From positions 186,001 to 250,000 of the forward strand of contig NZ_MJAO01000003.1 of NCBI RefSeq assembly GCF_001902635.1: a stretch of DNA of 64,000 nucleotides. Reading direction: 5' to 3'. The stretch comes from Serratia marcescens. GTDB lineage: Bacteria > Pseudomonadota > Gammaproteobacteria > Enterobacterales > Enterobacteriaceae. Every line of letters begins with the position of its first letter. The stretch's first letter is position 1. A program made the translations under genes and the position numbers. Shown piece by piece: positions 22,907-26,552 of the stretch. The notes beneath the pieces are model-generated. The model was not told the DNA's origin. It worked only from the letters and a program-made list of their open reading frames with translations, and searched no databases.

Positions 22907-25618
22907 TCACTTCCTGGGTTTAAAGCGCAGCAGCCGGTTGGCGTTGCTGACCACGGTAATCGATGACAGCGCCATCGCCGCACCCGCCACCACTGGGCTG
23001 AGCAACGCACCGGTCAGCGGGTAGAGCACGCCGGCGGCGATCGGAATGCCCAGCGTATTGTAGATAAAGGCGCCGAACAGGTTCTGCTTCATGTTGCGCA
23101 GCGTGGCCTTCGACAGCGCCACCGCATCTGCCACACCGTGCAGGCTGTGGCGCATCAGGGTGATGGCGGCGGTCTCGATGGCGATATCGCTGCCACCGCC
23201 CATCGCGATGCCCACGTCGGCCTGCGCCAGCGCCGGGGCGTCGTTGATGCCGTCACCGACCATCGCCACGCGGCGGCCCTGCGCCTGCAACTGCTTGATC
23301 GCCGCCGCTTTGCCGTCCGGCAGCACCCCGGCAATCACCCGATCGATGCCGGCCTCTTTGGCGATGGCGTTGGCGGTCACCGGGTTGTCGCCGGTCAGCA
23401 TCACCAGCTGATACCCCTGCTGGTGCAGACGTTGCAGCGCCGCGACGCTGTCCTCGCGCAGCGGATCGCGAATGGCGAACAGCGCGGCCGGTTTACCGTC
23501 AACGGCCAGCAGCACCGGCGTCACGCCGCGTTCGGCCTGGGCGCGCATCGGCGCGTCCAGTTCGGCGGTCGCGACCTGATGCTGTTCCAGCAGCGCGGCG
23601 TTGCCCAGCAGCAGCGGCACGCCGTCGATTTCCCCGCTGACGCCGGCGCCGCGCAGGGTGCGGAACTGCGCTACCTGCGGCAGCGTTTGCCCGGCGGCGC
23701 GTTCCATGATGGCGCGCGCCAGCGGGTGGTTGGAGCCTTGCTCCAGCGCGGCGGCCCAGCCGATCGCCTGTTGTTCGCTGACCTGATTGAAGGTCAGGAT
23801 CTCCACCACCTGCGGCTTTCCTTCGGTCAGGGTGCCGGTTTTGTCGAACACCAGGGTGTCCAGCTGGCTGGCTTGCTGCAGGGCGTCGGCGTCACGTACC
23901 AGCACGCCGAACTCCGCCGCGCGGCCGACGCCGGAGATGATCGACATCGGTGTCGCCAATCCCAACGCGCAAGGGCAGGCGATGATCAGCACCGTGGTGG
24001 CGATCACCAGGGTATAGACCAGCTGCGGCTGCGGGCCGAAGAAGTACCACATCGCCGCGCTGAACAGGGCGATAGCCACCACCGCCGGCACGAACACCGC
24101 CGAGACGCGGTCAGCCAGCTGGCCGATCGCCGGTTTGCTGCTCTGTGCCTGACGCACCAACTTGATGATGCGCGCCAGCGTGGTTTGGCTGCCGATGGCG
24201 GCGGCGCGGAACAGCACGCTGCCGTCGTCGACCACCGTCCCGGCATGCACCGTGTCGCCGGGGCCTTTTTGCTGCGGCACGGCTTCACCGGTCAGCATCG
24301 CTTCATCGAGCCAGACTTCGCCCTGCACGATTTCGCCGTCGACCGGCACGCGGTCGCCGGTGGCCAGCCGCAGCGTCATACCGAGCTGCACCTCCGCCAG
24401 CGGAATGTCGCGTTCGCCGTCGTCGCTCACCAGCCGCGCGGTGGGCGGCGTCAGATCCAGCAACCGCTCCAGCGCCTGTGAAGAACGCTGACGAGCGCGC
24501 TGTTCCAGCGCATGGCCGAGGTTGATCAAACCGATGATCATCGCGCTGGCCTCGTAATAGAGGTGGCGTGCTTCCATCGGGAAGAAATCGGGCCAAATGT
24601 TGACGGCGATCGAGTAGAGCCAGGCGGCGCCGGTACCGAGCGCCACCAGGGTATCCATGGTGGCGCTGCCGTTCATCAGCGCGCGCCAGGCGTTGCGGTA
24701 GAAGTGCCCGCCGGCGAACACCATCACCGCCAGGGTGATCATGCCGACCAGCAGCCACGGGCGCTGGGTTTCCGGCGTCAGCGTCATGCTGCCGCCGAAC
24801 AGCCCCCAGGCCATCAGCGGGACGCCCAACGCCAGACCGAGTGCTGCCTGCCAGCTAAAGCGCCTCATGTTGGCGCGCGCGGTCTGCTGCTGGCGTTCGC
24901 GGCGTTCGGTTTCGTCCTGGATCATCTCGGCGCCGTAGCCGGCTTTTTCCACCGCCGCCACCAGCGCCTGCGCATCGGCGGCGCCGGTCACCAGTGCGCT
25001 GCGCTCCGCCAGGTTGACGCGCGCGTGCTCCACGCCGGGCACGTTTTGCAGCGCCTGCTGCACCTTATTGACGCAGCTGGCGCAGGTCATGCCGCTGAGC
25101 AGCAGCTGCACGCTGTCGTCCGCGCCGTCGGTTGCCGGAAGGGGAAGCTGCGCCGCTGGCTGAACGTCCGGCAACGAAGGTGTTGCGTCAGTCAACGGCT
25201 CAGTTTTTGGGACGACGGTACCCGCCACGCTGGCGTGATAACCGGCATGTTCCACCGCGGCGATCAGCGCCTGCGGATCGGCATCGCCGTACACTTTCGC
25301 GCTGTCGACATCGACCTCGGCGGCGAACACGCCCGGCACCGCTTCCAGCGCTTTGCGGGTGCTGCCGACGCAGTGCATGCAGCTCAGGCCGCTCAGCTGC
25401 AGTTCGGTATCGGCACGCGGCGCGACTTCGGCCTGATAACCGGCGGCGATCACGCTGTCGATCAGCGCGCTGTCCGGCGCTTCGCCGGTCACTTTGGCGT
25501 AATGCACGTTAACGTCGGCCTGTTCGACATCACTGCGGCTTTCCAGGGCTTTTTTCACCCGCTGCGCGCAGTTCATGCAGGACAACCCCTGCAATGACAG
25601 CATAGTGGTGTGTGACAT
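22907..25618 (-). CDS. copA: Copper-exporting P-type ATPase CopA
   Basis: Inner-membrane Cu(I) efflux P1B-ATPase of 903 aa. Three N-terminal heavy-metal-binding domains carry CxxC at 14-17, 80-83 and 179-182; E. coli CopA has two in 834 aa. The membrane CPC motif is at 548-550, the phosphorylated DKTGT at 592-596, then SNHPLA and [18 protein letters not shown] precedes ATG. A CueR-type promoter lies 70-95 bases upstream. A candidate -1 frameshift site after the second metal-binding domain could yield a 139-aa chaperone. Confidence 0.97.
25131..25211 (-). promoter_or_regulatory. Candidate programmed -1 frameshift signal in copA
   Basis: On the minus strand, codons 137-138 read C CCA AAA (25211-25205), a slippery heptamer. 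A -1 slip gives CCC AAA AAC then TGA at 25202-25200, so translation would stop after 139 residues with both first metal-binding domains complete. A 9-bp stem (25175-25167 with 25139-25131) lies 29 bases downstream, and a competing short hairpin (25186-25182 with 25175-25171) lies between. E. coli copA uses a CCCAAAG slip to make the chaperone CopA(Z). Site and stop are seen; function is inferred. Confidence 0.6.
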
Positions 25619-25685
25619 GATTTGACTCCTTGCTTAAAGGCGGTGTTGAAACGGCCACCGCAGGATCTGTTTTTATTAAGAGCAG

Positions 25686-25716
25686 AGGTTAAACCTTCCA
25701 GCAAGGGAAAGGTCAA
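25686..25716 (-). promoter_or_regulatory. CueR-controlled copA promoter
   Basis: Minus-strand -35 TTGACC (25716-25711) and -10 TAACCT (25691-25686) are separated by 19 bases, the overlong spacing typical of MerR-family activation. The spacer region carries the near-palindromic CueR box at 25693-25713 with arms ACCTTTC and GGAAGGT. This matches the E. coli copA operator closely. CueR itself is encoded 21 kb away, at 47187. Confidence 0.92.
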
Positions 25717-25776
25717 GGCGGTTTTTCACCTGCGGGGAATGACGGTGGTTTTACATTGTATAACAAGGAATTATAT

Positions 25777-25815
25777 CGGCGGCAGCGCGGTCGTGTTACC
25801 CAGACCGTGCCGCCG
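25777..25815 (-). repeat. Hairpin after pigN without T run
   Basis: A strong stem (CGGCGGC plus CGGTC paired with GACCG plus GCCGCCG; one 3-nt bulge, 10-nt loop) lies 9 bases after pigN. No T run follows in the pig direction, so it may be an mRNA end-protecting structure or a leaky terminator in front of copA. Confidence 0.6.
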
Positions 25816-25823
25816 CGCTGGGG

Positions 25824-26552
25824 TTACAGCACGAAGGGAATGAAACACTTCACCTGGCGTTTATAGTTGCGCCAGACCTCACCGTAGCGCTTCTCGGCCA
25901 TTTTCTCGCTTTTGGGGATGGCGTCGGCGAAATACTGAACCAGGTTGGTCAGCGGTGCGACAAGGCCAAACAGGTTGCCGGCGAGCAGCCCGAAGCTGAT
26001 GAAAATAAGGAAGTCGCCGAAATAATTCGGATGGCGCGCCAGCCCCCAGAAGCCGCTGTTCAGCAGCCGGCCTTTATTGTTCGGATCCTGTTTGAAGCGC
26101 CGCTTTTGGTAATCGCTGCCGAAGTGGAACAGCGTGCCGATCAGGTAGACGCCAATGGCCAGCCATTGCAGCGCACTCCACGGCCCCTGCAGCTTGCTGG
26201 CCCAGTAGAAGGGCAGGCAATACAGGCCGCCGAAGATCATGACCATCATCACCGCCAGCCACGGTACCTGCTGTGTGGGCATCACGTCCTTGAGTTTGGC
26301 GGCGGCGGTGTTGCCGTACCAGCGTGTCAGCACGATGTTCATGCGCAGCAGGTACAGGCCGACCAGGACGAGGATCAGGGCTTTGTGGCTCAGATCGCCC
26401 TCGCCGAAATAGCAATAGACCAGGGTAACCGGCCCCATGGCGTTGAACCCCCACAGGAACATCGGGCGAGTGTCCTGCGCGCCGCGGCTGGTGATAAACG
26501 CCAGCAGCGCAAGGACCAACAAGACAACGGCCAAAGCCATCCATACGTTCAT
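25824..26552 (-). CDS. pigN: PigN, membrane protein of MBC formation
   Basis: 242-aa integral membrane protein with about six hydrophobic segments. Its C-terminus (LARHPNYFGDFLIFISFGLL, then YGEVWRNYKRQVKCFIP) is of the DUF1295/isoprenylcysteine methyltransferase-like fold. Genetic work on Serratia places PigN with PigF in the O-methylation that completes 4-methoxy-2,2'-bipyrrole-5-carbaldehyde. RBS AGGAG lies before ATG, and the gap after pigM is 18 bases. It is the last gene of the operon. Whether it binds substrate or methyl donor is not clear from sequence. Confidence 0.92.
   Translation of the reverse strand: MNVWMALAVVLLVLALLAFITSRGAQDTRPMFLWGFNAMGPVTLVYCYFGEGDLSHKALILVLVGLYLLRMNIVLTRWYGNTAAAKLKDVMPTQQVPWLAVMMVMIFGGLYCLPFYWASKLQGPWSALQWLAIGVYLIGTLFHFGSDYQKRRFKQDPNNKGRLLNSGFWGLARHPNYFGDFLIFISFGLLAGNLFGLVAPLTNLVQYFADAIPKSEKMAEKRYGEVWRNYKRQVKCFIPFVL

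Follow-up and report, generated by a model that had tools for sequence, protein, structure and literature searches.

The copA gene in the 64,000-nucleotide stretch of Serratia marcescens DNA analysed here (the window) contains a slippery heptamer, C_CCA_AAA, closely followed by a stop in the −1 frame. This raises the question of whether some ribosomes change frame at this point, in which case one gene would supply both a Cu(I)-exporting pump and a small copper chaperone. In E. coli, a −1 frameshift in copA reportedly yields CopA(Z), as described by Meydan et al. 2017 and Drees et al. 2017, and like elements are said, in the abstract of Meydan et al. 2017, to occur in other bacteria. We consider it very probable that programmed −1 frameshifting in the window copA is genuine and represents a two-domain version of E. 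coli CopA/CopA(Z), with pump and chaperone made from one gene.

The first-pass annotation had located the slippery site at 25200-25211, and its letters, frame and coordinates proved correct: the minus strand reads CCCAAAAACTGA from 25211 to 25200. The zero frame runs GTC GTC CCA AAA ACT GAG CCG (V135 V136 P137 K138 T139 E140 P141), whereas the −1 frame entered from C_CCA_AAA reads CCC AAA AAC TGA, with the stop one codon past the slip. As had been claimed, the shifted product would end at residue 139, with 138 zero-frame residues plus Asn. The heptamer has the X_XXY_YYZ form in frame and lies in the linker before the last metal-binding domain (MBD). Pfam recognised three HMA stretches, an E1-E2 ATPase domain and a HAD hydrolase domain in CopA; two of the HMA stretches fall within residues 1-138, in agreement with the earlier statement that the gene has three MBDs and the site follows the second. 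A two-domain chaperone is the best reading of the predicted product. The promoter stretch ACCTTTCCCTTGCTGGAAGGT is, we presume, similar to the E. coli CueR box. An Rfam search of 24600-25900 returned five matches, every one under the gathering score of its family.

Table 1. Features of the copA locus, in window coordinates.
Feature	Position	Strand	Basis
copA, Cu(I)-exporting P1B-type ATPase, 903 aa, three N-terminal MBDs	22907..25618	-	Pfam; alignment with annotated E. coli copA
Slippery heptamer C_CCA_AAA	25205..25211	-	Read in sequence; alignment column common to 91/91 genes
−1 frame stop TGA, one codon past heptamer	25200..25202	-	
Predicted frameshift product, 139 aa (138 zero-frame residues + Asn), MBD1 + MBD2, including stop	25200..25618	-	Two HMA stretches
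Pseudoknot stem 1, 5' arm GCCGUUG, 5 nt past heptamer	25193..25199	-	Prediction and covariation
Pseudoknot stem 1, 3' arm CAGCGGC	25152..25158	-	Prediction and covariation
Pseudoknot stem 2, 5' arm GUUGCCGGA (half of the 9-bp stem of the first-pass annotation)	25167..25175	-	Prediction and covariation
Pseudoknot stem 2, 3' arm UCCGGCAAC	25131..25139	-	Prediction and covariation
CueR-box-like promoter stretch ACCTTTCCCTTGCTGGAAGGT	25693..25713	-	By eye

Heptamer and stop by themselves are not rare in this genome. The exact 12-mer of the site occurs once in the window, and with up to two mismatches it has 3 matches, against a shuffle mean of 3.44; the pattern CCCAAARNNTRA occurs 15 times in the genome, against 44 for a reversed-pattern control. 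The case therefore rests on comparison across relatives. What sets the predicted site above chance is its conservation, together with a putative pseudoknot and synonymous constraint.

Such a comparison covered 102 loci with a site, or 101 once L035, which has another heptamer, was removed; many of them are near relatives and are not independent. In a protein alignment, the CCA codon of the site fell in one column in 91 of 91 copA genes, which had been chosen for having the site and not for its place. The first-pass annotation had staked its claim on heptamer and −1 stop being retained in close relatives, and they are: both were found in all 12 Serratia loci and in 21 of the 22 same-genus loci (L010-L031). 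The same-genus exception (G021/L031) has lost the P-site slip (CGCAAAA) and kept the stop and most of the knot.

Of 80 loci surveyed by title, 54 are Enterobacterales, and 49 of them carry CCCAAAR with a −1 stop one codon on, placed in the linker ahead of the last MBD. The five Enterobacterales loci without the full site are those of Moellerella, two Arsenophonus, Providencia stuartii (copA frame interrupted in the record, no CCCAAAR with stop found) and Xenorhabdus kozodoii (heptamer and pseudoknot kept, near stop lost). CCCAAAR with the stop occurred in none of 22 Photobacterium, Vibrio and Salinivibrio loci and in none of four single-MBD Haemophilus, Necropsobacter and Avibacterium loci. 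It should be noted that all eight Proteus loci (L064, L065, L068-L070, L072, L075, L076) have an additional heptamer, A_AAA_AAA, within the first MBD; the −1 stop that follows it is 2 or 6 codons away.

Using a 19-nt signature, CCCAAARNNTRANCCGYTG, we found matches in 232 of the 391 genomes of the window's family and 79 of its 149 genera, compared with 7 for a reversed-pattern control (hand count). The 30 matches inspected, out of the 232, all lie in copA before a last MBD. A pattern with loose spacing was drowned in chance matches over the 391 genomes and was excluded from the counts. Among the 159 family genomes lacking the signature, follow-up covered the 35 of at least 3 Mb (hand count), and 34 of these (all but G033) were searched for CopA: 21 had no match at 1e-180, 3 had only a 45-46% identical match, which we read as a paralogue, and 10 had an orthologue (63-74% identity). 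Five of the 10 orthologues (G544, G628, G731, G515, G581) carry a slippery site and stop in other letters. In G544 (L213), A_AAA_AAA replaces C_CCA_AAA, which puts Lys-Lys for the Pro-Lys of the linker, and the stop and compensated stems are kept. G506 has lost the P-site slip and kept stop and knot; the site is lost in G527 (like Moellerella) and G707 (like Arsenophonus); the two frames are exchanged in G517, as described below; and copA is cut short in G441 (L222). In this last gene, the first MBD and the frameshift site are seemingly replaced by unrelated sequence, and by eye the linker is like that of G033. Moellerella and a like genome (L077, L215), which lack the frameshift site, have nearly identical second and third CopA MBDs. 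A further variant, G045 (L035/L145), has three MBDs followed, at the same place in the gene, by A_AAA_AAG and a −1 TGA one codon on.

Synonymous differences were counted at conserved residues in the 91 distinct genes of the 101 loci, using 45 greedy pairs. Because some of these join genes of different genera and branches may be shared between pairs, the z values are inflated. Synonymous variation in copA is lowest at residues 133-162, where the 14 lowest of 871 nine-codon windows are all found (observed/expected 0.19-0.34, against an all-window mean of 0.99). Pro137, in the heptamer, had no synonymous change where 18.6 were expected, but selection of the genes for CCCAAAR and stop accounts for part of the dip at the heptamer. 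The share over the predicted pseudoknot described below is free of this bias: Pro141 and Ala155, outside the letters used for the selection, likewise had none (18.4 and 17.7 expected, respectively).

The same region is predicted to fold into a pseudoknot. The first-pass annotation had proposed a 9-bp stem (25131-25175) as a stimulator, with the reservation that 29 bases is far for that role, and had suggested folding the RNA for a pseudoknot. The stem itself is upheld; the distance objection falls, because the stem is stem 2 of a predicted H-type pseudoknot whose stem 1, missed earlier, leaves a 5-nt spacer after the heptamer. Alignment A1, made of the 86 distinct 100-nt sites among the 101 CCCAAAR loci (L116, in which the stop has moved, was left out), contains two conserved, interlocking arm pairs. 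Stem 1 (GCCGCTG/CAGCGGC) starts 5 nt past the heptamer, and stem 2, around CCGGAA/TTCCGG, has its 5' arm within the stem 1 loop and its 3' arm beyond stem 1.

Over 14 core pairs, pairing was possible in 95.0% of 1204 cells, compared with 15.7-52.7% when partners were slid by 1-3 columns; over all 19 pairs it was 81.5% of 1633 cells. Compensatory substitutions occur in both stems: 48 cells of the core pairs differ on both sides, where shuffling gave 13.7 on average, and none of 500 shuffles, which ignore relatedness, was as high. Of the five covariation measures, two did not exceed the shuffles: the number of pairs with double changes and the number of pair types. Genes that lie outside the pattern or the alignment provide another test, and their stems are in other letters: stem 1 as ACGCUG/CAGCGU in G731, as CCACUG/CAGUGG (within 10 bp) in G515, where stem 2 is of another sequence, and as GCCACUGACU/AGUCAGUGGC in G544, as well as stem 2 as CCGGCGUC/GACGCCGG in Xenorhabdus kozodoii. 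The observed knot score was reached by 0 of 60 codon shuffles for nine of 13 sequences, including the window and E. coli, by 1 of 60 for G033, G045 (whose best-scoring knot is placed elsewhere than the common knot) and G021, and by 6 of 60 for the GC-rich G581. The nested fold of the window, from a program that cannot form pseudoknots, includes stem 1; its stability is modest (z −1.56, with 15 of 200 shuffles doing as well). Prediction and covariation both place a pseudoknot downstream of the heptamer.

That the site comes after domain two is not peculiar to the window gene. By motif, two MBDs precede it in 58 of the 101 CCCAAAR loci, one in 29 and three in 14, and a single MBD follows it in all 101; the constant is its place before the last MBD, and what varies is the number ahead. 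A midpoint-rooted tree of 56 MBDs placed the last domains in one clade (100/99). The E. coli domain falls among the first domains (that half 88/98), and the second and third domains lie in the other half, except for the Proteus mirabilis third domain, which sits on a long branch among the first domains. Xenorhabdus koppenhoeferi and Serratia AKBS12 have one-domain forms whose domain is of the first type, which suggests loss of the second one beside an unchanged signal. Judging from this tree, with its midpoint root and moderate support, the two-domain product is probably ancestral, the one-domain form of E. coli being reduced by loss of an MBD2-type domain.

The E. coli copA frameshift is experimentally established (PMC9548414, PMC5009743), the latter paper also giving 70 residues as the size of CopA(Z). 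The first-pass annotation had likened the window site to the E. coli one, and the letters bear this out: the zero frame of E. coli copA (L009), CAC CCA AAG GCT AAA, becomes CCC AAA GGC TAA in the −1 frame, for a product of 70 residues, the size published (PMC5009743). In both genes CCCAAAR lies in the linker that leads to the last MBD (PKAKPL in E. coli, PKTEPL in the window), the −1 stop comes one codon later, the interlocking stems occupy matching alignment columns, and the product, predicted in the case of the window, consists of MBD alone. They differ in that the predicted window product has two MBDs and 139 aa rather than one MBD and 70 aa, the heptamer ends in A and the stop is TGA (G and TAA in E. 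coli), and stem 1 has 7 bp from 5 nt past the heptamer (9 bp from 3 nt in E. coli). In E. coli, the nascent chain stimulates the frameshift (PMC7558416); no conserved counterpart is obvious in the listed copA genes, whose residues ahead of the site vary. The site being homologous, we take the number of domains in the product as variable rather than defining, and file the window copA, on its sequence features, as a member of the copA −1 frameshift (CopA/CopA(Z)) system with a putative two-domain product.

Other arrangements are more distant. The dnaX gene is another host gene with a −1 shift, an early stop and a shorter product; it is unrelated to copA and has an A_AAA_AAG heptamer, a hairpin and an upstream Shine-Dalgarno-like element. 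A free-standing CopZ beside CopA, such as that of H. influenzae (PMC10187127), supplies a small MBD protein along with the pump, but from a separate gene and with no frameshift, unlike the window copA. Both the frameshift site and a separate copZ-like ORF were seen in a further family (f9), probably the Pasteurellaceae, in which 14 genomes had a copA match and 12 were read. All five multi-MBD genes (G089, G199, G281, G299, G362) have CCCAAAR with a −1 stop at codon one. Seven genes have a single MBD, and a copZ-like ORF lies upstream of all six checked (L232-L237, one partly seen), the seventh being G231. Frameshift site and separate copZ-like ORF are perhaps alternative ways of supplying the chaperone in this family. 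Flags for stops inside copA in this family were considered as further frame exchanges of the kind described below and rejected, the pump frame being whole to its C-terminal stop in seven genes (G089, G107, G353, G251, G290, G123, G327); six of these seven have a copZ-like ORF upstream. The window's own genome has a second Cu-type ATPase (863-codon frame, two HMA domains; G000:C2:56500-61500, L240) and, near it, a free-standing HMA ORF (93-codon open frame), and a copper chaperone could therefore come from elsewhere than copA.

In three genomes of two genera, the frames are exchanged at the site, with the chaperone in the zero frame and the ATPase in the −1 frame. The exchange lies near 1518 in G517 (L219) and G777 (L230), two species of one genus, and near 1515 in G033 (L036). 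In G033, the MBD frame reads GCC CCA AAA CCG CGC CGC TGA, giving a 77-residue chaperone from the first ATG, and the ATPase continues in the −1 frame as CCC AAA ACC GCG CCG CTG. In G517 and G777, the MBD frame ends SPKLSR-stop, the ATPase reads CCC AAA ATT GAG CCG CTG in a −1 frame that opens only 6 nt before the heptamer, and four congeners (G609, G675, G729, G776) have the normal order. Heptamer and knot are kept in the swapped genes (the knot was scored for G517 and G033, and the letters of G777 are identical there). From the last MBD to its end, the ATPase differs between G517 and G777 in 1.4% of bases, with a dN/dS of 0.062; the pump is therefore under purifying selection despite the swap in both genomes.

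The simplest account of these genes is that the same signal would make the pump by a −1 shift and the chaperone by normal reading. We regard it as likely, judging from the sequences compared, that the copA frameshift is reversible: at least two lineages would have swapped frames through a heptamer-to-stem-1 spacing that differs by one nucleotide, and an ancestral two-domain chaperone would have been trimmed to one domain or extended to three with the signal in place. The pump of the swapped genes might instead be made by re-initiation past the chaperone stop, or the genes might be broken or misread, which we judge unlikely though worth weighing. An in-frame ATG does lie 34 codons past the first heptamer codon in G517 and G777, but no Shine-Dalgarno sequence was seen before it by eye, and in G033 no ATG separates the site from the last MBD, though GTG or TTG starts might serve there. 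The G033 swap is known from a single genome, with only one of its genus compared, and adjoins an A run, so it could be a homopolymer sequencing error (A4 for A5). Such an error is unlikely for G517 and G777, because two species share the change; the low dN/dS of their ATPase and the intact heptamer and knot also speak against broken genes.

The swapped genes bear as well on how the site itself is explained. The linker might be conserved for its protein sequence alone (PKTEPL), heptamer and −1 stop being by-products, and PK-x-x-PL is indeed conserved as protein in most listed genes. This explanation, to which we give very little credence, is largely contradicted by the synonymous counts, which are lowest exactly at the linker and knot, with no changes at Pro141 and Ala155; moreover, stem partners covary, and G045 and G544 have Lys-Lys in place of Pro-Lys yet stay slippery. 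Action of the RNA element through pausing, attenuation or transcript shortening, with a short transcript making the chaperone and no frameshifting, appears improbable. The title of Drees et al. 2017 reportedly names differential transcript formation as well as frameshifting in E. coli. Such a role, however, needs no slippery heptamer, no particular frame and no stop one codon on, all of which are kept, and the swapped genes join their MBD and pump frames only through a frame change. A frame change by transcriptional slippage would find an A5 run in the window and an A8 run in G544; since the A runs are short in E. coli-type sites (only AAAGG) and in swapped genes (only A4), we reject it as next to incredible.

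On the programmed −1 frameshift reading, a ribosome that has translated MBD1 and MBD2 would meet C_CCA_AAA, where the pseudoknot 5 nt downstream would hold it back. Some ribosomes would slip back by one base, tRNA-Pro moving from CCA to CCC and tRNA-Lys from AAA to AAA, and would then read AAC and stop at TGA, releasing a 139-residue, two-domain Cu(I)-binding protein. Those that do not slip would make the 903-residue pump. The two-domain protein would do what one-domain CopA(Z) does in E. coli, namely deliver Cu(I) from the cytosol to CopA. The analysis shows the sequence, its frames, its conservation, a covarying pseudoknot and synonymous constraint, whereas we infer that slipping happens in this organism, how often it does so and that the product acts as a chaperone.

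The frameshift in E. coli copA is already known, and the window site is a variant of it; the surprising part for a specialist is the swapped genes. Among the literature matches listed, titles and abstract openings contained neither two- or three-domain CopA(Z) products nor swapped frames, which does not establish their absence from print. Our comparison points to an old and strongly constrained cellular device, the frameshift known from E. coli, that extends over a whole bacterial family and further. The chaperone it makes would have forms with one, two or three domains, and its two outputs would be able to trade places. If true, the natural swap would mean that frameshifting at this signal is efficient enough in vivo for the supply of either product. 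The altered heptamers, compensated stems and swapped frames are natural mutants for studying bacterial frameshifting and the purpose of a multi-domain copper chaperone.
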